From the IMG/VR virus record IMGVR_UViG_3300006919_000291, positions 1-29,082 of that record: a DNA stretch of 29,082 nt; one strand, 5' to 3'. Under the pieces are notes generated by a model. The model was given only the letters and a program-made list of their open reading frames with translations. It was not told where the DNA came from and ran no database searches. The number at the start of each line of letters is the position of its first letter. Within the stretch, counting starts at the first letter, position 1. This DNA comes from a virus. Shown piece by piece: positions 192-21,500 of the stretch. The translations under genes and the position numbers were made by a program.

Positions 192-503
192 CTATCCATT
201 CTTCCCAAACTTTTGAGAACGAGCAGCACCAGAGCCTCTGGCAACACCGCCGCCTTCCATCTTCTGGATCTTGGTGACACCCCCTGCTGCGTACATCTTT
301 GAACTCATACGCATCTTGTTTGGCATGTTGTTCGGCATCTTGCCGCCACTTTGGGCAAGAAACGCAGGAACCATTTCGCCGTCTTTCTCTGCCATCGGCA
401 TCTTGCCGCCAGACTTGTAGCCCTTAGACTTCATTTTTCCGCCACCGGCATAGCCTTTGGACTTCATCTTGCCGCCAGCCATCATCCCTTTAGACTTCTT
501 CAT
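192..503 (-). CDS. Small Gly/Lys/Met-rich repeat protein
   Basis: This gene encodes 103 residues from the ATG at the 503 end, preceded on the minus strand by a strong GGAGG ribosome site 6 nt away; that site decides the start over an upstream in-frame codon. The first third is a tandem repeat of units like GGKMKSKGY, giving a very basic low-complexity region with no acidic residues. The middle is richer in P, N and M. The C-terminus contains GGGVARGSGAARSQKFGKNG. A similar GG-x-VR-x-x-G-x-A ending occurs in the small protein encoded next to the large terminase. It overlaps the upstream gene by 14 nt and abuts the probable portal gene. The function is unknown. Its place among head genes suggests a virion or assembly role, and the charge suggests nucleic-acid binding; both are inference. 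Confidence 0.75.
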   Translation of the reverse strand: MKKSKGMMAGGKMKSKGYAGGGKMKSKGYKSGGKMPMAEKDGEMVPAFLAQSGGKMPNNMPNKMRMSSKMYAAGGVTKIQKMEGGGVARGSGAARSQKFGKNG

Positions 504-1179
504 CGGAATCCTCCGCATATAAATTGTCAAAAACCCTGTTCACATCCAGCGTGTAGTCAAGATCAGACTTGCTGTAATGAATATGTTGAGACGGGCGAAA
601 ATCTGGTGCGCCCTCTCCTGTCTCAAACCAAGCTGGGTGAGTCACCCTAACTCGATTATTCGGTAACGCTACTATGTTCCCTGTATACGGGCCTGCCTCT
701 AGTAGCTCCATCACATGACTCTGCTTGTGTTGTGCGGGGTCATCTGCAATTTCGTTGTCTGTGTAGTCTACAGTAAACATGTACTTAGCAGGGTAGAACT
801 CTCCGTCCACCTTTGCCAGCCACGGACAGGGTGATGCCCTCTCCAACACATATACCGAATGATCCCGTGATGAGCAATCCCAAGGTTGCGCTGCATATAC
901 AGGCATCGGCTCAGGCCATTCCTCAAAAGGCGTGTCGCCTACCAGTGCGGTGATTGGCATTCTTGCCCACATCGCCCCGCCATGAACATTGGGTTCGTCG
1001 GTGTCGTATGTCTCTGCACCAGTAAATATCAACTGAAAACTCAGGCATCGCTTTGGCATTGTCGTGACAGCAATTGCCATCGCATGAACAAATTCACCGT
1101 GATACTTAGTGTGGTTATGCGTGTATTCCTTTCTCACCCAGCACTTAAAGTACGGGATGTTGCTTTGAAGATATGGCAT
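490..1179 (-). CDS. Conserved phage protein of unknown function
   Basis: The product is 229 residues and starts MPYLQSNIPYFKCWVRKEY. It is rich in aromatic residues and prolines, and has motifs such as GGAMWARMPITALV (about residues 67-80) and a C-terminal region with TGNIVALPNNRVRVTHPAW. No signal peptide or membrane segment is visible. I recognise the style of a protein often seen beside terminases in marine phage contigs, but I know no assigned function. The start ATG immediately follows the TAG of the preceding small gene, with no good ribosome site of its own, so translational coupling is likely. The end overlaps the following Gly/Lys/Met-rich gene by 14 nt. Confidence 0.8.
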   Translation of the reverse strand: MPYLQSNIPYFKCWVRKEYTHNHTKYHGEFVHAMAIAVTTMPKRCLSFQLIFTGAETYDTDEPNVHGGAMWARMPITALVGDTPFEEWPEPMPVYAAQPWDCSSRDHSVYVLERASPCPWLAKVDGEFYPAKYMFTVDYTDNEIADDPAQHKQSHVMELLEAGPYTGNIVALPNNRVRVTHPAWFETGEGAPDFRPSQHIHYSKSDLDYTLDVNRVFDNLYAEDSDEEV

Positions 1180-1371
1180 CTATCTAGGCTTTGCCGTCCC
1201 ATCCATTCTGACCCTGCCGCCCTTCTTCATGTCTTTAACTTCTTGATTTTTTGGAGGGTCTAGCGGAGCAATATTTTTTTTCTTTGTTACTGGAGGTTCT
1301 AGCGGAGCAATGTCTTTCTTCTTTGTTATTAAAGGCTCCAGCGGAGCAATCTTTTTTTTCTTACTGGTCAT
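1180..1371 (-). CDS. Small Lys/Pro repeat protein
   Basis: This 63-residue protein is built mainly of three tandem 13-residue units of the form TKKKxIAPLEPPx (isoleucines at residues 8, 21 and 34). Each unit has a lysine run followed by IAPL and an acid-proline pair. The DNA shows the same 39-bp periodicity. The C-terminus, MKKGGRVRMDGTAKPR, carries the GG-x-VR-x-x-G-x-A pattern also found at the end of the Gly/Lys/Met-rich protein encoded nearby. The start ATG overlaps the terminase TAA by one base (TAATG), which suggests coupled translation. The function is unknown. A disordered, basic, proline-rich linker-like protein made with packaging genes could act on DNA or as a head accessory, but nothing proves it. 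Confidence 0.7.
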   Translation of the reverse strand: MTSKKKKIAPLEPLITKKKDIAPLEPPVTKKKNIAPLDPPKNQEVKDMKKGGRVRMDGTAKPR

Positions 1372-2882
1372 TAGTAATAACTCGCTTTCCTTGGATAAAA
1401 AGGTTCGTCCTCTTCATCACTGAGTAGTCGTAAGAACCCGCCCTGCCTAAACCGTAGCAATGCCTGTGTAGAGGAGTCTACAAGGTCATCATGCTCACCA
1501 GCAGGAAAAGCAGCAAACTCTTCTACAACCTCTTCGGCAAACCGTGTGTTAGGCCGCCATACATTGCCAGAGGCAAACAAGTCAGATACTGCGTTTACAC
1601 GGCTGATCTTATCGTTGCCCCTAGACGGGGTGTATTCCGCAACAGGTATGCCCATCGCTCGTAGCTCAAAGATCAGCGGCGTACCCGCTGCCTTGGCTTC
1701 TACAATGCAGGCATCTGGCTCCCAGTAACCGTAAAACTCATAGGCTTTCTTTTTAAGCTCAGGGAACTCTAGTCGCTCTTTGTGAGCATCAAGCAGGATT
1801 ATGTTCGCCTGCATCGTGCCTACATCGTCTGGGTGGTAAAACACACCCCATGTCGTACAGGCAGAGAAATCTGATCGTTGAGTCTTGAGGAATGCCGTAT
1901 CCCAAGACTGGATAATAAACTCGCATTCAGGCGGCACATCACTGTCCCATTCGCGCCACCATTCCCTTTTCACCAGAGCGCCCTCTTCTGAGGTTGGATT
2001 CTGCTGATACTGGGCATTCCACTTGGGAGCGGGTAATTCGTTGCGTAGCGACTCAAGCTCTTCTAAAGGCCAGAACTGAGGCCATAGCGACTTACCTGAC
2101 GGCATGATCGCCGGGAACTCAATCACCTCCCATTCATCCGTACCAGCCCGTTGCACTGAGGACTTGATAATCTGCCCTGTCAAGTCACGTTTGTGCCATC
2201 GGGTCATAACAACGATGATCGCGCCTCCCGGCTGTAAACGCTGTCTAGGCCCGGAGGTATACCACTCGTAAACTTTATCAAACACACCGGGATCGGCACT
2301 CTGCCCTTCTTGCTCAGAATGCGGGTCATCGATAATCAACAGATCCGCACCCTTACCAGTCACAGCACCGCCAACACCAATAGCGAAGTATTCGCCGCCT
2401 TGTGTGGTACTCCACCGGCCTGCGGCCTTGGAATCTGCCCGTAAACCCAACGCAGGGAAAACCTGCTTGTAGTCTTCACTGTCTACTAGGTTACGAACCT
2501 TGCGACCAAAACCAACCGACAACTCTGCGGTGTGGGCAGTCTGAATGATCTTCTTCTCAGGAAAGTTACCTAGAAACCAAGCGGGGAGTAAGTACGAAGC
2601 AAACTCTGACTTAGTGTGCCGTGGTGGCATATTGATTATCAGACGCTTCAACTCGCCACGGGCAACACGCTCAAAAGCATCCCCCATGATCTTGTGATGC
2701 CTGCCCTCAATAAACGCAGGCCATACATGTTTGATAAACGGCATGAACCCGTCACGGGCCAATTCCTTAGCTTCAGCGGCCTCTAACTCTTCAATAAGAG
2801 CCAGCATCTCGCGCTGCTCATGCTCAGGTAAATTAGGGATCTTCTTGAGAAGATCTGGGTCTACTCTGTCAAGAATCGGCAT
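1371..2882 (-). CDS. terL: Terminase large subunit
   Basis: This is the DNA-packaging motor ATPase and headful or site-specific nuclease, which works at the portal. The product is 503 residues, the usual length for the family. The N-terminal ATPase shows a Walker A variant MPPRHTKS (residues 85-92), Walker B LLIIDDP (181-187) and a coupling motif MTRWHKRDLTG (226-236). The C-terminal RNase H-like nuclease shows an acidic residue in QSWDTAF (D328), one in IVEAKAAGTP (E395) and a final HDDLVDS (D465/D466). All expected catalytic residues are present. The start ATG has a weak AGAGGG site 4 nt upstream. The long leader holds a promoter candidate and palindromes. The small subunit is encoded upstream but is separated by about 460 nt. 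Confidence 0.97.
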   Translation of the reverse strand: MPILDRVDPDLLKKIPNLPEHEQREMLALIEELEAAEAKELARDGFMPFIKHVWPAFIEGRHHKIMGDAFERVARGELKRLIINMPPRHTKSEFASYLLPAWFLGNFPEKKIIQTAHTAELSVGFGRKVRNLVDSEDYKQVFPALGLRADSKAAGRWSTTQGGEYFAIGVGGAVTGKGADLLIIDDPHSEQEGQSADPGVFDKVYEWYTSGPRQRLQPGGAIIVVMTRWHKRDLTGQIIKSSVQRAGTDEWEVIEFPAIMPSGKSLWPQFWPLEELESLRNELPAPKWNAQYQQNPTSEEGALVKREWWREWDSDVPPECEFIIQSWDTAFLKTQRSDFSACTTWGVFYHPDDVGTMQANIILLDAHKERLEFPELKKKAYEFYGYWEPDACIVEAKAAGTPLIFELRAMGIPVAEYTPSRGNDKISRVNAVSDLFASGNVWRPNTRFAEEVVEEFAAFPAGEHDDLVDSSTQALLRFRQGGFLRLLSDEEDEPFYPRKASYY

Positions 2883-2890
2883 AAAACCCT

Positions 2891-3018
2891 CTAGGAATAT
2901 TCCCGTCTAGGAATATTCCCCTCTCATGTATATACCTAAAATAATCATGTATCTGCCGTGGGGGGCACCTTCCTAGTAGGAATCTTCCTTACTCGGCATA
3001 TTCCTAGAGAGAGGAATA
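2891..3018. promoter_or_regulatory. Cluster of GGAATATTCC palindromes upstream of terL
   Basis: Two identical copies of CTAGGAATATTCCC lie at 2891-2904 and 2907-2920, their centres 16 bp apart. A variant, TAGGAATCTTCCT, lies at 2977-2989. A spaced inverted repeat of the same half-site, TATTCCT-6 nt-AGGAATA, covers 2999-3018 and abuts the -10 box of the minus-strand promoter candidate. The same 10-bp palindrome recurs at 12288-12356 upstream of the helicase gene. The arrangement fits an operator array for a dimeric regulator, phage or host, that would control late or packaging transcription. No obvious repressor gene is visible in the window, so the binding protein is unknown. Confidence 0.6.
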
Positions 3019-3022
3019 ACTG

Positions 3023-3049
3023 ATTATACAGAAGTTACACACTTGACAA
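3023..3049 (-). promoter_or_regulatory. Candidate sigma70-type promoter for terL
   Basis: Read on the minus strand, a TTGTCA box (3049-3044) is followed after 15 bp by a perfect TATAAT (3028-3023). The spacing is short compared with the usual 16-18 bp. Transcription would begin near 3016, inside the inverted repeat TATTCCT-AGGAATA, which is a classic operator position, and would give an mRNA leader of about 130 nt that also contains two more copies of the palindrome before the terL start. Confidence 0.45.
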
Positions 3050-3345
3050 GAATGAGGCAAACACTTTGTGTGAAAATTTTGCAAAATTTTTCGGGGGCTA
3101 GGATTCCTACCCCTTTTCCCTGCAAAAAAAGGGTGAGTACTACTTACTGTTTACGGAATATATATTTTTTGGGTAATTGTTTGAGTGTTTCACTATGTAT
3201 ATAGACGGTGGGTGTGTATAGGCATAGGGGGGGGTGGGGTGGTCGCAGGATGATAGACAGATTTGCTGAGAGGCGGGGGTGTGCTAACCGTTAGCATATG
3301 CTGTACTGCGTACACAAACCGTTGGGCTATGGTGTACTGGCTACG
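3050..3345. other. Non-coding gap between small and large terminase genes
   Basis: No convincing gene is seen on either strand. The stretch holds an imperfect palindrome CTAGGATTCCTA near 3098-3109, flanked by G and C runs, an AT-rich tract near 3150-3180, and a G-rich run (eight G, T, four G, T, two G) at 3227-3242. An inverted repeat CCCTTTT / AAAAGGG lies at 3111-3133. Gaps this long between terminase genes are unusual, so a packaging (pac or cos) site is possible, but no direct evidence supports it. Confidence 0.4.
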
Positions 3346-10071: not shown

Positions 10072-10503
10072 CTAAACCGAATCTAGGACGGTTGTCAGAG
10101 TCTCTATGTCAGCCAGCGAGTCGGTTGGCTTGTCCTCTACTATCATCAGGTAGGTCAGAGAGGCTGCATGCTCCCCGAACTCTTCTGCAATTCTTTTGAA
10201 CGTGCGACTGAGCATCAGGATTTGTTCGTTGCGATTTCCCCGATGCCCACCAGTGTGCGTAGCGGTCATGTCTGGACTCTTGAGGTAAACGCCTGCCTGA
10301 ACAGCTTGCGAAAGTATTCTCTCGGCAGCTTGATGATGCTTGATCGTGATATACCGTTTGAGCAGTAAATGATCAATGAACATCTGGTCAGCAACACGGG
10401 CGCGGCCTATACCGCTATCAGACTCCTCCAAGGCAATGACATGGCGGCGGTGGAGTGCCGCCGTGCCGATGTCGTTAACCTTAGATTTCAACGTCCCACT
10501 CAT
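10072..10503 (-). CDS. Small protein downstream of helicase, unknown
   Basis: The 143-residue product begins MSGTLKSKVNDIGTAALHRRH and contains the segment IDHLLLKRYITIKHHQAAERIL, a helical pattern I have seen in small regulatory proteins of alphaproteobacterial phages, without a confident family. The C-terminus is rich in D, E, L and T (DSLADIETLTTVLDSV). The start ATG overlaps the end of the helicase gene by 23 nt, so expression is likely coupled. No catalytic motif or membrane segment is seen. Its operon position suggests a replication-linked or regulatory role, which is inference. Confidence 0.65.
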   Translation of the reverse strand: MSGTLKSKVNDIGTAALHRRHVIALEESDSGIGRARVADQMFIDHLLLKRYITIKHHQAAERILSQAVQAGVYLKSPDMTATHTGGHRGNRNEQILMLSRTFKRIAEEFGEHAASLTYLMIVEDKPTDSLADIETLTTVLDSV

Positions 10504-12241
10504 CGTCGGTCTCGTTAAAGTCTTTCACCCTTGGCGGCGAGAACGGATCTGGCAGATCGTCATAGCTGATTTCGCTGTACCGGCCTGTGGGTATGTCATA
10601 GTCCAAGACGGTGCCGCCCGTAGTGCCTATCCATTTGAACCTGACCTTCCAGACATGTATCTCAGTAGCCTTCTCAGGGCTAAGGTGTACGGTGATCCCA
10701 AGGTCTGCCTTGGCAAAGAAGCTGGCGCTACCAGAGATGTTCATCCCCTTTGGCACCGCCGTTGTGCCGTCTGGGTTGGTTGGCATCTTGGCTGGGTGAG
10801 CGATAAACCAAATGTGAATCTGATTAGCTCTAGCAAACGCAACAAGCCTAGTCAGCATCTCATTGATGCCCTGATGCTCATTGTCTAGCGACCTGCTCTG
10901 CGAGATGTAGTTGTACGGATCGATGACCAAGCCTCGTATGCCCAGCCTCATAACAGCTTGCCTAGCACGGTCTAGAATACTGTCGATTGTGGTTGCCTCA
11001 CCCCCACGCTGCTCCAAGAACAGGAAGTGATCGTTGACCCAGTTCATGGCACTGACAGACTCAACCCTGCTCATGCGGTTTGGCATCCCGTCAAAGAACG
11101 GCTTGCCGACAAACTTCTCCGATAACTTAGCGATGTGCAGAGGCGGCGGGTTCTCAAAGCTTGCGACAGCAAACCTCCAGCCCTCGCTTTGTGCCAGATT
11201 AACCATTATCTGGTCAATAAACTCAGACTTGCCAGATCCCGGCAGTCCGGTAACAACAGACAATTGCCCCGGCACCACTGTGAACAGCCTATCGACAGAC
11301 GGTATCCCTGTAGACATCCCGCCCACCAAGCCGTTGTCGTACAGGTGAGCAATATCCAAAGCATAGTCATCCGCTGAGTACACACCCTCCAACGGCATAG
11401 CTGCCGCCCTGTCAATTGCCAGTGCCAATGCCTCTGGCCCAAGCTTCAGCAAAACATCGTTTGCGTCCTTGCACCCATCAGGCCACTCGACAGACCAGCA
11501 CTTGGCTCTGCCGATACGCCTAGCCAACTCCTCAGCCAATGCGAACCCAGCATCGTCACCGTCAGCAGCTAGAACAATCCTGTCCACCCGCTCAATCAAA
11601 TCCTTTGCCGCCCAGATGTAGGCGAACTTGTTATCGTCTTCTGGGTTTAATTCTTTTGTGCTTACCTTCTGTGGCGCACCGTTGGGTACGCTGACGCAGG
11701 AATCTATGCCAGCCGTAGCGCATGCCAGCAAATCCATTTCACCCTCGACAATGACCAGTGTGGTTGCATCATCTGGCACCTGCTCTGCACCCCACAGGGT
11801 TCGGGCAGCACCGTCTTGTGTAAACGCTTTACCCTCGACGCTACGCCACTTCACGGCTTCTTTGTTGCCGTAGACAAAACCGATAGACGGCTGCTCACCG
11901 TTGTTGTGGTAGAACTTTGTGCCGCTAACGACTGGATACCTGTCAACGACAGACGGGTCTATGCCTCTATCTGACAAGCATTTACTGATCAAATCTTTAT
12001 CGGTGGTCTTGGGAACGGATATCGCCCTGACTTTGGGTGCCTGTGGACGGTAGTCTGGATGGTCTGTTTTGCCAGCTAAACCGCAATGATGGCAGTGATA
12101 CAGGGTTGTGTTCCCGTCCATCGTTACAGTCATTGATTTCATGCCCTTCTTCTTTCTTGTTTCACTGCATACTGGGCAAGGTATACGAGCGTTCTCGGTG
12201 TATTGGACTAGGATCGAATCCAAGTCTTCTTTATTTAGCAT
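10481..12241 (-). CDS. Primase-helicase (T7 gp4/Twinkle-like)
   Basis: The 586-residue product joins primase and replicative helicase. An N-terminal zinc finger has CPVC (22-25) and CHHC (50-53). The TOPRIM region has IVEGEMD (164-170) and AADGDDAG (225-232). A RecA-type helicase follows, with Walker A TGLPGSGKS (331-339), Walker B LVIDP (438-442) and a later FIAHPAK segment with the motif-H3-like histidine. It would prime and unwind DNA during phage replication. The chosen ATG (12241) follows GCAGGAGTGCAA, a strong ribosome site; a GTG two codons earlier sits inside that site. The upstream gap holds four palindromes shared with the terL leader. No DNA polymerase gene was found in the window. 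Confidence 0.93.
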   Translation of the reverse strand: MLNKEDLDSILVQYTENARIPCPVCSETRKKKGMKSMTVTMDGNTTLYHCHHCGLAGKTDHPDYRPQAPKVRAISVPKTTDKDLISKCLSDRGIDPSVVDRYPVVSGTKFYHNNGEQPSIGFVYGNKEAVKWRSVEGKAFTQDGAARTLWGAEQVPDDATTLVIVEGEMDLLACATAGIDSCVSVPNGAPQKVSTKELNPEDDNKFAYIWAAKDLIERVDRIVLAADGDDAGFALAEELARRIGRAKCWSVEWPDGCKDANDVLLKLGPEALALAIDRAAAMPLEGVYSADDYALDIAHLYDNGLVGGMSTGIPSVDRLFTVVPGQLSVVTGLPGSGKSEFIDQIMVNLAQSEGWRFAVASFENPPPLHIAKLSEKFVGKPFFDGMPNRMSRVESVSAMNWVNDHFLFLEQRGGEATTIDSILDRARQAVMRLGIRGLVIDPYNYISQSRSLDNEHQGINEMLTRLVAFARANQIHIWFIAHPAKMPTNPDGTTAVPKGMNISGSASFFAKADLGITVHLSPEKATEIHVWKVRFKWIGTTGGTVLDYDIPTGRYSEISYDDLPDPFSPPRVKDFNETDDEWDVEI

Positions 12242-12253
12242 TTGCACTCCTGC
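12242..12253 (-). promoter_or_regulatory. Conserved ribosome-binding leader GCAGGAGTGCAA
   Basis: Read on the minus strand, GCAGGAGTGCAA directly precedes the helicase ATG. The same 12 bases precede two plus-strand genes (starts at 13386 and 15352). The GGAG part is the Shine-Dalgarno core, and it decides the ATG start here. Confidence 0.7.
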
Positions 12254-12287
12254 TTTTGCTGTGGTTAAAATCCACCGTCAGGTGGTC

Positions 12288-12356
12288 TTAGGAATATGCC
12301 CAGCTTGGAACATTCCTTAAATAATTAGGAATCTTCCTCAACAGGAATATTCCTAG
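12288..12356. promoter_or_regulatory. Four-site palindrome array upstream of helicase
   Basis: Four copies of the GGAATATTCC-type palindrome lie at 12291-12300 (GGAATATGCC), 12307-12316 (GGAACATTCC), 12328-12337 (GGAATCTTCC) and 12344-12353 (GGAATATTCC). Their centres are 16, 21 and 16 bp apart, and the identical pair upstream of terL is also 16 bp apart. The last two lie inside the 3' end of the preceding small gene. This is a probable operator array for the regulator that also acts near terL; the protein is unknown. Confidence 0.6.
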
Positions 12357-12621
12357 CCGGTTTTATCACCCCCTCCAGAAGATCCATCACCGCCCTCTTT
12401 CTTTCAACACCCTGCAACCGAGCAGCAGCCAAAGCTTGCTGCCTAAAGTCAGGGTTTGCATTGAGCGGCATAGCGATTGTCTCATCTGCAAAATATCGGA
12501 TGGCACTGATTCTATCTCTTGAGGAATCTGAGTCGATATCTTTTACGGTTTGAATGAAAATTCTTCTCTTAAGTTTTCTCTCGCGCTTCTTCCACGCAGA
12601 TTTCTGCTCTCGGCTGATCAC
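12325..12621 (-). CDS. Small basic protein between resolvase and helicase
   Basis: The product is 98 residues with a very basic N-terminus (SAWKKRERKLKRRIFIQ), a helical middle and RLQGVERKRAVMDLLEGV near the end. A nucleic-acid contact is plausible but unproven. The start is a GTG with only a weak ribosome site, 53 nt inside the resolvase gene, and no better start is available. The 3' end carries two of the GGAATATTCC palindromes, so its C-terminal residues (ARNIPVEEDS) are constrained by that DNA site. Moderate doubt remains about the start. Confidence 0.6.
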   Translation of the reverse strand: MISREQKSAWKKRERKLKRRIFIQTVKDIDSDSSRDRISAIRYFADETIAMPLNANPDFRQQALAAARLQGVERKRAVMDLLEGVIKPARNIPVEEDS

Positions 12622-12984: not shown

Positions 12985-13167
12985 ATGGCTAAACTCAAAT
13001 CATTTTTAACCGAATTGGAAGACGAAGGTTCTATCAACTATGACGAACAACAACGAAGATTTATTGGTCTTGGAGGACAATGTCCCACTACCCAAGGACA
13101 ACCGTATGGGGGCAGGAGAAAGCCTGCCAGCAAACTTCAAAAAGATTGTGGAACAGATGAGGATTGA
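12985..13167 (+). CDS. Small protein overlapping the next gene
   Basis: The 60-residue frame begins MAKLKSFLTELEDEGSINYD and continues QQRRFIGLGG. The N-terminal 25 residues look like a natural helix, but the rest (QCPTTQGQPYGGRRKPASK) resembles translation of the following gene in the wrong frame, because 128 nt are shared with the gene starting at 13040. The ribosome site is weak (TGGACAC). It may be a short leader protein or an artefact. Confidence 0.35.
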   Translation: MAKLKSFLTELEDEGSINYDEQQRRFIGLGGQCPTTQGQPYGGRRKPASKLQKDCGTDED

Positions 13168-13363
13168 TCAATCCTTTTTTGTCCCGACTGAGAGCGAGGC
13201 GCATCGCAAAGCGAAAACCAACGCCATCAGGTCAGCAATACGGAGAATGCAAAACGATGTTAAAAGCAGTGTGGAACCGGATTCGACATTTTCTGTCAGA
13301 AAATACCCTGATCCAAGCCGTGGGGCAGGACAATACGGTTTACGGGTTTACCGAGTTACCTAA
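13040..13363 (+). CDS. Small conserved-looking phage protein
   Basis: The 107-residue product has a central segment ANFKKIVEQMRIDQSFFVPT followed by a basic helix (RKAKTNAIRSAIRRMQN) and a C-terminal beta-rich end (FSVRKYPD...GLRVYRVT). This shape is common in small phage proteins of unknown role that are predicted to contact DNA; none is assigned by me. GAAGG lies about 11 nt before the ATG, a poor spacing. It opens the plus-strand block and may be first expressed. Confidence 0.65.
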   Translation: MTNNNEDLLVLEDNVPLPKDNRMGAGESLPANFKKIVEQMRIDQSFFVPTESEAHRKAKTNAIRSAIRRMQNDVKSSVEPDSTFSVRKYPDPSRGAGQYGLRVYRVT

Positions 13364-18500: not shown

Positions 18501-21500
18501 AGAAGGTTGGATATCCTGTTAGCTATAGTCTCTGTTGCCGTGGGTAGTTCTATGTATCTTTCTAGCTGCGGGACGATGCTCAGGTAGTACTGCTCTTGAG
18601 TATTGATAAACCTCATCTGCTCCTGCTTCTGATCTGCCGTCAGGTCAGACTTCAATAAGGTTCTACGCTGCTTCCTGAGATCTGCAAGCGCACTGGCTGT
18701 AGGCTGTAGCTGCTTCCTCAGACCTATGAACTGCTTTTTATTTACCAAGAAACTCTCAAGCTCATCAAACCTACCTTGGTCTTGCAGCAGCTTGGCTGCA
18801 TTCTCGGTACGCTTGATGTAGTCCCACATCTCGTAGAAGTCTTCTTTGTTACCGCCACCAAACTCACTAGCAAAGAACCTTCGTATGACCGGATACTGAG
18901 AGACATCGGTTCCAGCAAGCACCGCTCTGTTGTCTCCTTGCAGGGTGGTGCCTCTCAAGCCATAGTCAACGGCACCCAAGAAATAAGATCCAATTGTGCC
19001 GCCGTAGCCTTTCATCAAATGATCTAGTTTGATCGGGCTTATGCCCAAGACCTTTGCCATGTTCTTGGCAACCTCTGTTGTAGAGGCAAGCTCTTGAAGC
19101 TCTGGCGGCAATGATGAATCTATAAATACGGGAGTTACAGGTCTACCCGTGTAGAGGTCGTAGTTCATGTACGCCTCCATGATCGGGGTTATTGCCTGCG
19201 GGGGTTGAACGCCAAGCGTACCAAACACTGCTCGGCCTATTGATTGCTGCGCCTCTCTGGCAGTTGTGCCTTCGTTGTAAGAATCAATGATCCGCTCAGG
19301 CAGCGTCTTGAAGATAAGGCCAACCTCAAACGGGATTGGTATTCTGACTGGCACACCAGACGGCGTGGGTATTAGCCAATAGTTGTCTTTTACTTCTTCG
19401 GTCTGCTCTTTGTACTGCTCATCATCACTAACCATTGTGTAGTAAATGGCTGTACTAGCAGCTATCAAAGATCCTCTGGCGATAAAGCTCATGGCTGCCT
19501 GAGAGCGTGAAAGGTCTCTATTGGCAGAGCTTTTACCTGTACCGGCCCGTGCAAGGACATCTAAGCCTTGTATCCTAGCGTTCAAGAAAGGAATCGTTGC
19601 TGTAACCAATCGCATAACAGGACTGCTGCCACGGCGACCAAAGTTCAACACCTCCATCGCTTGATAGCTGGCCTCTGCTTCATTACCTGTACGAGCTAAT
19701 ACATCGTTGTAAACAGCGTTTCTAGTAGCAGCGTCTGAACGGGTTGTCGCCTGACCAAGAAAATCCCAACCGCCGATAAAGAGTTTACTAAGAAGCCCTC
19801 TTTGATCTACGTTCTTGTTGCGAGTTTGAAGTATCTTTCCTGCGTACTCGCCAATGTTTTCTGGGTCATTCTTGTAGTCATAACCGCCTACAACACCTGT
19901 CCTTTCAAGCTTCTCCATGCCTTCAGCGTAACCAAAGACAGTGTCAACTATTGGCACAAAGCTAGATCCAGAGGTAACAAACGCAGACAACGAATCACGC
20001 AGCATGTTTGCAATAACAAACCCCGGCTCCCGTGTAACCATCTCTCGTAAAAAACGGGATGGGAAACCCAGTATCTTAGAAACTTCACGCTCTACCCCAC
20101 CGGCAGGCTCAACAGTCAACGACTCATATATTAACGGGTCATCAATAATGAACTTACGTCTATTGCCGTTGACCTTGAAGGTGACAACAGCCTCGCCTGT
20201 AGTGTTCTGTCCGGGCTTGACCTCTCTTGCTAAACCAATGTTTCTCATGTCCCTGACAATGCGTTGCTGGGCAACATTCTTCATGCCCATGCTAATCGCT
20301 GCGTTCAGGTTCATGGATATTGCTTCCAAGAGCGGCACGTTAACTTCTTTTTCGCTGCCTTTGATTGCCTTTAGGTCTGCGCTTGCAGTCAGGCCGCCAA
20401 AGATGTTCGGCGCGTTTGGGGTGTCGGCACCTTCTACTTGACGATAGAAAGGCACATAGTCTGACTGGTCTTGCCACATCTCTGCGGTCTCTGCATCAAC
20501 AACACCCGTATCTTTGAGAAACTGAACGGTGTAGCCGTTGTAGTCCTGCCAAGCGTCATACCAGTCCTTGACTATTGAGTTGCCATTCTCATCCAAGAAA
20601 GACTCTGCGGTTGCAATGTTAGCTGCATGATCTGCCGGGGTTCCCGGTACGGCTATGCCTTTTGCTCGCAAACGCTCGGATCTCTTAGCTATTGAGTATG
20701 CCTGAGCCATTTGCTCAAGAGACCCATGCTCCTTGGTGTACAGCATAGACATCAGGTCTATAAGGCCACCAATCTTTCTGGTCTCGCCACGGCTATTGAT
20801 GTGGTTGAAATCCGCTATCTTAGTCATGCCACCTGTGTACACAGGGACACCGTACTGAAGAGCGGCTGCGGTTATCGCGTTAGCCCTGTCAGCGTTCAAA
20901 GCGGCAGCCAAGGACGATGAGTCAGCAAGCAAGTTGCCAAGCATGCCTTGGTAGTTTTCTAGCTGGGCATACCTATTGACTGCTGCCTGTTTAGCCTTGG
21001 TCAACCACTTGGCTATCGGCCCTTGGTCTAAGACGTTGAGGTAGGTCTGTCCGGGGGTGTTTGTGGGTAGGTCTGCAACAACATTATCTATTGCAGCTTG
21101 AGCAGCAGGATTGACCTGTGGTGAGTTAGACCTAGAGAAAGCAGGCATTTCACTATCTGAAAGCTCTTGGCCTTTGTCTGGGTCGGCTGCTACAGCTTGT
21201 GCATATGGATCTGCGCCGGGATTAAATCGTGGCACCGTGCCTGCGGGACGATTCTCTGCTATTTGTAGATTGTCGGCTACAACACGGTCAACTTCACTCT
21301 GACCTATTACTTCTTTGCGCTTGTATTTATCAAGCAGGTTGAATGGAAGCCCTACGTCTTCAGTCGGTATCGGTCTGGCAGCATCGCCTCTTCCTCTGCG
21401 CCTAGAGGCTGAGTCGGGTCTCGGTCTGGGTACGCCGCCATCAGATAGTTTTCTCTCGTAAGTGGCTGCTTGGTCGCCTTCAGGTATCCCTCCGTCAGAT

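Follow-up and report, generated by a model that had tools for sequence, protein, structure and literature searches.

The question raised by this locus is whether the short palindromes that crowd the leader of terL, and whose core recurs before the primase-helicase gene, form one shared array of binding sites, and for which factor. The DNA analysed (the window) is a 29,082-bp virus record (IMGVR_UViG_3300006919_000291, positions 1 to 29,082) and, judging by related contigs, a fragment of a phage genome of ~50–60 kb. It encodes TerL (1371–2882, minus strand; PHROG 38, E-value 3e-105), TerS, a primase-helicase (10481–12247, minus strand; PHROG 239, E-value 1e-84), a RusA-like resolvase, an exonuclease, a Sak-like annealing protein and a protein of 3,189 aa; terL is the first gene after the late promoter in the window. 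In-frame tandem repeats of 33 and 39 nt, coding for Gly/Lys-rich and Lys-rich segments, are found near the start of the late operon (332–498 and 1252–1368), and the gene at 490–1179 (minus strand), with a 'ferredoxin' PHROG match, occurs in all nine of the array-bearing records with coverage here and was found in none of four array-free relatives.

A megablast search against 50,697 phage records gave no match to the window. The closest named TerL proteins, that of Pelagibacter phage HTVC027P among them, are 57–59% identical. The nearest cultured or named relatives resemble the window in having a related TerL: HTVC027P (57% identity), HTVC023P (54%), 023Pt_psg01 (59%), DSL-LC04 (58%) and cyanophage Pag-Yong1 (49%), the last of which also has a related primase-helicase (38%). 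Scanning of the fetched parts of the first four revealed no palindrome array, and no array of the window type was seen when the leaders of Pag-Yong1 were read by eye. The late leader of Pag-Yong1 (L336, about 20200–20600) contains, at a similar place, many direct repeats of TGTCATAC, which are not palindromic.

The search with the core GGAATATTCC at one mismatch or fewer revealed eight sites in the window, starting at 2894, 2910, 2979, 2995, 12291, 12307, 12328 and 12344. They form four pairs with starts exactly 16 bp apart, two before terL and two before the primase-helicase gene, and the rest of the window has no further site of this quality. When the window was simulated 300 times with a third-order Markov model, the mean number of such sites was 0.46 and the maximum 3, and each simulation yielded none of the 16-bp pairs, of which four are observed. 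At two mismatches or fewer the excess is modest (16 vs. 8.8, with 16 reached in two of 100 shuffles), so it is the near-perfect sites that carry the signal. The sites are thus confirmed as real and far above chance. The earlier note had asked for enrichment in gaps as opposed to random copies across coding regions; in the window, the sites all fall within the two leaders, and so do all nine sites of the 52,949-bp contig G001, the TerL and helicase of which are 99% identical to those of the window.

Closer parsing altered several of the features that had been noticed from the letters. The identical palindromes described at 2891–2904 and 2907–2920 are indeed identical 14-mers (CTAGGAATATTCCC), but only their inner 10 bp are palindromic, that is, the exact GGAATATTCC copies at 2894–2903 and 2910–2919 (pair B). 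The variant described at 2977–2989 does contain GGAATCTTCC (2979–2988, one mismatch), but this is the first member of a 16-bp pair completed by GGCATATTCC (2995–3004, one mismatch; pair A). As for the spaced inverted repeat at 2999–3018, TATTCC-N8-GGAATA is present, but it is better read as the right half of the fourth site (GGCATATTCC) plus a lone half-site, GGAATA (3013–3018), which ends 4 bp from a minus-strand TATAAT. This half-site is kept as TTATTCC in G001, G002 and G010 and is of uncertain significance. A weak, degenerate site, ATGTATATACCT (2926–2937), 17 bp from the site at 2910 and kept in G001, may also belong to the array. Before the helicase gene, where the same core with the same spacing had been noted, two pairs instead of one are found: GGAATATGCC (12291–12300) with GGAACATTCC (12307–12316), and GGAATCTTCC (12328–12337) with GGAATATTCC (12344–12353). 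The latter pair is not strictly intergenic, its first site overlapping the 3′ end of a 98-aa ORF and its second lying within the last codons of that ORF.

The first four sites are flanked by the terL start at 2882 and, on the other side, by a promoter-like element on the minus strand. This element comprises a −10-like TATAAT (3023–3028, minus strand), kept as a TATAAT/TACAAT/TAAAAT-like sequence in relatives, and a −35-like TTGTCA (3044–3049, minus strand) separated from it by a 15-bp spacer; it was not called by the promoter scanner, which requires a spacer of 16–18 bp. The −35-like hexamer is part of a conserved TTGTCAAG (3044–3060, minus strand), which in every palindrome class is located 15 bp ahead of the −10 and therefore lies outside the diverging site; it may be a −35 element of unusual type or a further binding site. 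In several phages, TTGTCAAG is the right arm of TTGACA-N4/5-TGTCAAG. The late-leader sites of relatives are likewise located downstream of the TTGTCAAG...TATAAT-like promoter. In G017, the promoter and array precede a first gene other than terL (the contig of G015 ends inside the array), so that the array marks the promoter of the late operon and not terL itself. The suggestion that packaging and replication genes are coordinated is thus altered: the target is the late-operon promoter and not packaging as such.

Several other features of the late region were observed. Nearly all palindrome classes keep, upstream of the late promoter, an element resembling CTAGGAGTCC/TAGGAATCCTA (3099–3115 in the window), which is perhaps part of a packaging site. 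The late leaders of G007, G008, G028, G030, G032 and G040 have a strong G+C-rich hairpin between the two groups of sites, with sequences unrelated between phages. In G004 and G005, a small HNH-type ORF precedes terL, and the late leader was not located. The TerL of G032 (L311, L313; 14497–15177, 16048–16857) is encoded by one open frame of 959 residues, in which about 290 additional in-frame codons, perhaps an intein, come between the parts matching query residues 1–227 and 221–490.

The second four sites directly precede the start of the primase-helicase gene at 12247. No convincing promoter was detected in this leader, and no terminator-like site near either leader. Between the array and the helicase start, a small inverted repeat, CCACC-TGAC-GGTGG (12272–12285, minus strand), can be read from the sequence. 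In the G003 group, a CAACTTTAAAGTTG-like repeat in the helicase leader occupies the same place as the late-leader hairpin of other phages. Loss of the sites in close relatives that keep the neighbouring genes, which would have spoken against an operator array, was not seen: 16 of 17 leaders at the helicase locus carry an array. The exception, L097/G043, has kept its late-leader array; its helicase leader is without one, and orf98 nearly abuts the helicase gene there.

Although the arrangement of the sites is retained among related phages, their sequences are not. Phages with a helicase identity of 83–84% have mostly TAGGCATATTCCTA sites. Late leaders of phages with a TerL identity of ~85% retain the promoter and the layout, and their palindromes change to TAGAACGTTCTA, GAGAACGTTCTC, CGATAGCTATCG or TAGTAGnCTACTA; further classes, TAGTACnGTTCTA, TAGGACnGTCCTA and TAGTAACTTACTA, are found in helicase leaders. 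At 71% TerL identity, G024 has the palindrome ACTAGTTATAACTAGT, and the late leaders of L049, L054, L056 and L080 (TerL identity of 70–72%) contain a repeated GGTATACC. The spacing of neighbouring sites is mostly 15–18 bp, also in classes with unrelated sequences, and thus the arrangement is kept while the specificity changes. The array of L228/G027 mixes GAGAACGTTCTC-type and CGATAGC-type half-sites, as if a specificity had been caught in transition. Array-free status was assigned by a palindrome-cluster scan and reading of the leaders by eye; negatives of the scan are weak, as it missed arrays visible by eye in G003, G027 and G034. In G022, the scan found only repeats in what look like coding regions.

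For comparison of the two leaders within genomes, shared 8-mers were counted between the late and helicase leaders of 14 genomes, with leader windows set by hand. Own pairs shared 208 8-mers, compared to a permuted mean of 48 and maximum of 149, and none of 20,000 permutations was as high. In 12 of the 14 genomes, the own partner leader was the best or tied match, and the exceptions, G008 and G030, belong to the very similar TAGTAG/TAGGAG classes. This set left out the near-duplicates G001 (of the window) and G010 (of G002), as well as G004 and G005 (late leader not located) and G043 (no helicase-leader array), and G009, G011, G012 and G013 were not entered. A run with 13 genomes and a shorter G030 helicase leader gave 165 vs. 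44 shared 8-mers, again with none of 20,000 permutations as high. Since two leaders ~10 kb apart change together, the factor must act in trans, and the result implies that both leaders are recognised by a sequence-specific factor of shifting specificity. The idea of a shared binding-site array thereby rests on much stronger evidence than before.

The earlier note found no evident binding protein in the window, and this still holds. Gene content was compared between array-bearing and array-free relatives, and three small genes neighbouring the helicase gene were found to follow the arrays closely, none of which fits every genome. These candidates are orf143 (10072–10503, minus strand), directly downstream of the helicase gene, orf98 (12325–12621, minus strand), between the RusA and helicase genes, and o107 (13040–13363, plus strand), divergent from the RusA gene and weakly similar to DUF7303. 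The gene o107 is present in 18 of 18 array-bearing and none of four array-free records, and, in a second count, in 19 of 25; however, the array-bearing G024 lacks it, and G044 has it although its helicase leader showed no array. For orf98, the counts are 17 of 18 and, in a second count, 16 of 25, and it is missing from the array-bearing contigs L094, G034 and G035, all of which are partial. For orf143, they are 16 of 18 and 18 of 25 (two of them marginal), and it is missing from the array-bearing 55-kb G008 and from L094. Another gene, o109, has the same distribution as o107 in the first count (18/18 vs. 0/4), but was not seen in the stretch of G024 that was read.

Comparison of ten families with helicase-leader similarity by partial Mantel tests gave p = 0.012 for o108 and p = 0.026 for o107 (ten tests, uncorrected), and values not below 0.05 for RusA, the exonuclease, the annealing protein, the NinB-like protein, orf98, orf143 and o109; the helicase itself tested against the exonuclease gave 0 of 2,000, which reflects phylogeny. 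The match of o107 to DUF7303 (21.6 bits, E-value 1.6e-4) is below the Pfam gathering score of 27 bits. The AlphaFold model of o107 (pLDDT 83.6) has an H-E-H-E-E fold with weak likeness to the nucleic-acid-binding domains SpoVS (Z 5.5, rmsd 3.2, 73 aligned residues), R3H (Z 5.3) and Alba (Z 4.4), all with Z below 8, whereas the four-helix model of orf98 (pLDDT 86.6) gave generic fold matches only. In neither model was a DNA-reading fold recognised with confidence, and the PDB fold search gave no match at E ≤ 0.001. Pfam and PHROGs searches with orf98 and orf143, as well as the PDB sequence search, yielded no useful lead. Pfam scans of 51 and 87 small proteins detected neither a repressor-type domain nor a CI/Cro-like gene; one HTH_23 match was obtained. 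In the long helix of o107, the position following a conserved arginine is occupied by S or A in TAGGAATATTCCTA phages, compared to Q or E in the 13-bp classes; L303 and L304, which are near G007 by helicase, carry TAGGAATATTCCTA and have S. L241 (Q, 12-bp class) and the G003 group (S, other palindromes) are exceptions, and the apparent tracking of operator class by this residue is suggestive only. Likenesses to N4-type hairpin promoters, LexA boxes and TrpR-like CTAG operators led nowhere.

Taken together, it is fairly likely that the two leaders are operators of one small regulon controlled by a phage-encoded, dimeric repressor, and that regulator and sites change specificity together. Phage origin, dimeric state and repression are what we infer here; the sites, their confinement to two leaders, their geometry and their matching within genomes were observed. 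In this mechanism, a phage-encoded and probably dimeric DNA-binding protein would bind tandem palindromes of ~12–16 bp, mostly 15–18 bp apart. It would act at two places, the leader of the primase-helicase operon and the beginning of the late (packaging/structural) operon, in which sites occupy the stretch from the promoter to the first start codon. Judging by the position of the sites, which in the late leaders are downstream of the −10 element and ahead of the first start codon, the likeliest mode of action is repression of the late and replication operons. At the late promoter, the bound protein would block initiation or promoter escape; in the helicase leader, which is apparently transcribed, it would be a roadblock to elongation, or would block an unrecognised local promoter. 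Repression would be relieved as infection proceeds, and joint shifts in the specificity of regulator and sites would place different palindromes at the same positions of related phages. Against this explanation stand the helicase leader without a clear promoter, which makes the mode of action there a guess, the late array of L097 without a counterpart in the helicase leader, and the failure of any regulator gene to fit all genomes or of any repressor-type domain to be found.

The earlier note left the choice between a host factor and a phage regulator open. A host transcription regulator, with a site that differs between hosts and an operator copied by the phages to time their genes, would agree with the lack of a pinned phage regulator, and host-specific sites are conceivable. 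However, phages whose TerL is about 85% identical have completely different palindromes, the mixed half-sites of L228/G027 are those expected of a specificity in transit, and the exact pair motif occurs in only 13 stretches among 84,980 bacterial and archaeal genomes, six of them Paenibacillus and none under a marine proteobacterial title. A host factor is therefore quite unlikely, and the factor is most likely phage-encoded. The six Paenibacillus genomes with the exact GGAATATTCC-N6-GGAATATTCC pair (L323, L324, L326, L331, L332 and L335) probably carry the operator of an unrelated regulator. It is unlikely, too, that the arrays are loading sites in nascent transcription units for a phage activator or antiterminator. 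Late operons often require activation, and the late promoter-like element, with its non-optimal 15-bp spacer, was not called by the scanner; but in the leaders read the sites are downstream of the −10 element, where activators rarely act, and no terminator-like site was found near either leader.

Other readings dispense with a transcription regulator. The arrays might be iteron-like replication-initiation sites or sites bound by the small terminase subunit, given that one lies between terS and terL and the other before the primase-helicase gene, and the similarity of TerS does follow that of the late leaders after TerL is accounted for (partial correlation 0.35, 0 of 2,000 permutations, n = 17). 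Yet G007 and L310 share the segment TTAASIHTLASRLMGQVEIRSRV, assumed to be the recognition region of TerS, and differ in their palindromes, and TerS is also present in array-free relatives, which makes origin or packaging sites improbable. That each palindrome is an RNA leader hairpin is the least credible of these readings. Every palindrome is self-complementary, and some leaders can be read as having a stronger hairpin between site pairs, but Rfam finds nothing in the window, and of 39 changed pairs in the sites of the TAGGAATATTCCTA clade (orthologous sites of near-identical genomes being counted more than once), 37 are broken, two still pair and none is compensated. Such one-sided, uncompensated changes indicate double-stranded DNA sites and not hairpins.

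The repressor regulon proposed here can be compared with two known systems. CI/Cro-type operators of temperate phages are tandem palindromes flanking divergent early promoters beside the repressor gene. The arrays share with them several tandem palindromic operators and immunity-class-specific sequences at conserved positions, whereas the targets here are the late-operon promoter and the primase-helicase leader, and no CI/Cro-like gene was found. The stoperators of cluster A mycobacteriophages (L5/Bxb1) come nearest in logic, although the arrays are not a member of that group. According to two papers (PMC6550527, PMC9283540), cluster A repressor sites occur in many copies per genome, also in promoterless leaders, their consensus and specificity differ between related phages, and a block of both initiation and elongation has been proposed; the sites are asymmetric 13-mers oriented with transcription, more than twenty of which are scattered through a temperate genome, and the repressor is a monomeric, two-domain protein. 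The arrays likewise offer multiple copies of one site, also in a leader without a clear promoter, and a site specificity that differs between relatives. In contrast, they consist of palindromes of 12–16 bp in tandem at ~16 bp, and the eight sites of the window and nine of G001 are all confined to two leaders. Site divergence and within-genome matching were both seen here. None of 11 related records, several of them partial, matches the tyrosine or serine recombinase families (PF00589, PF00239), and thus there is no sign of a lysogeny module. A literature search of titles and abstracts, mostly outside subscription journals, retrieved no description of these arrays, and two papers on related pelagiphages contain no passage on such promoters or palindromes.

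The finding is, then, an operator regulon with two targets and a specificity that diverges from phage to phage. A broader and less likely reading is that it is governed by an immunity-like regulator of an undescribed DNA-binding family that keeps the late and replication operons off and rapidly diversifies in specificity, with o107 as the leading suspect. The specificity, and with it some eight operators at two loci separated by 10 kb, would then diversify as rapidly as temperate immunity specificities, perhaps under pressure from co-infecting relatives. In its predicted long helix, o107 has RS/RA in the 14-bp TAGGAATATTCCTA phages and RQ/RE in the 13-bp classes, and this pair changes along with the operator in L303 and L304.

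For abundant uncultivated aquatic phages, of whose gene regulation little is known, the analysis maps a regulon that has two targets and comes in many natural variants of specificity. With it, one could ask what drives the diversification of operator specificity in phages that lack a detectable lysogeny module. The matched palindromes can serve directly as bait for the regulator, and they allow such phages to be classed from fragments. If a phage protein is confirmed as the binding factor, it would probably represent a new kind of regulator, because sequence and fold searches recognised none.
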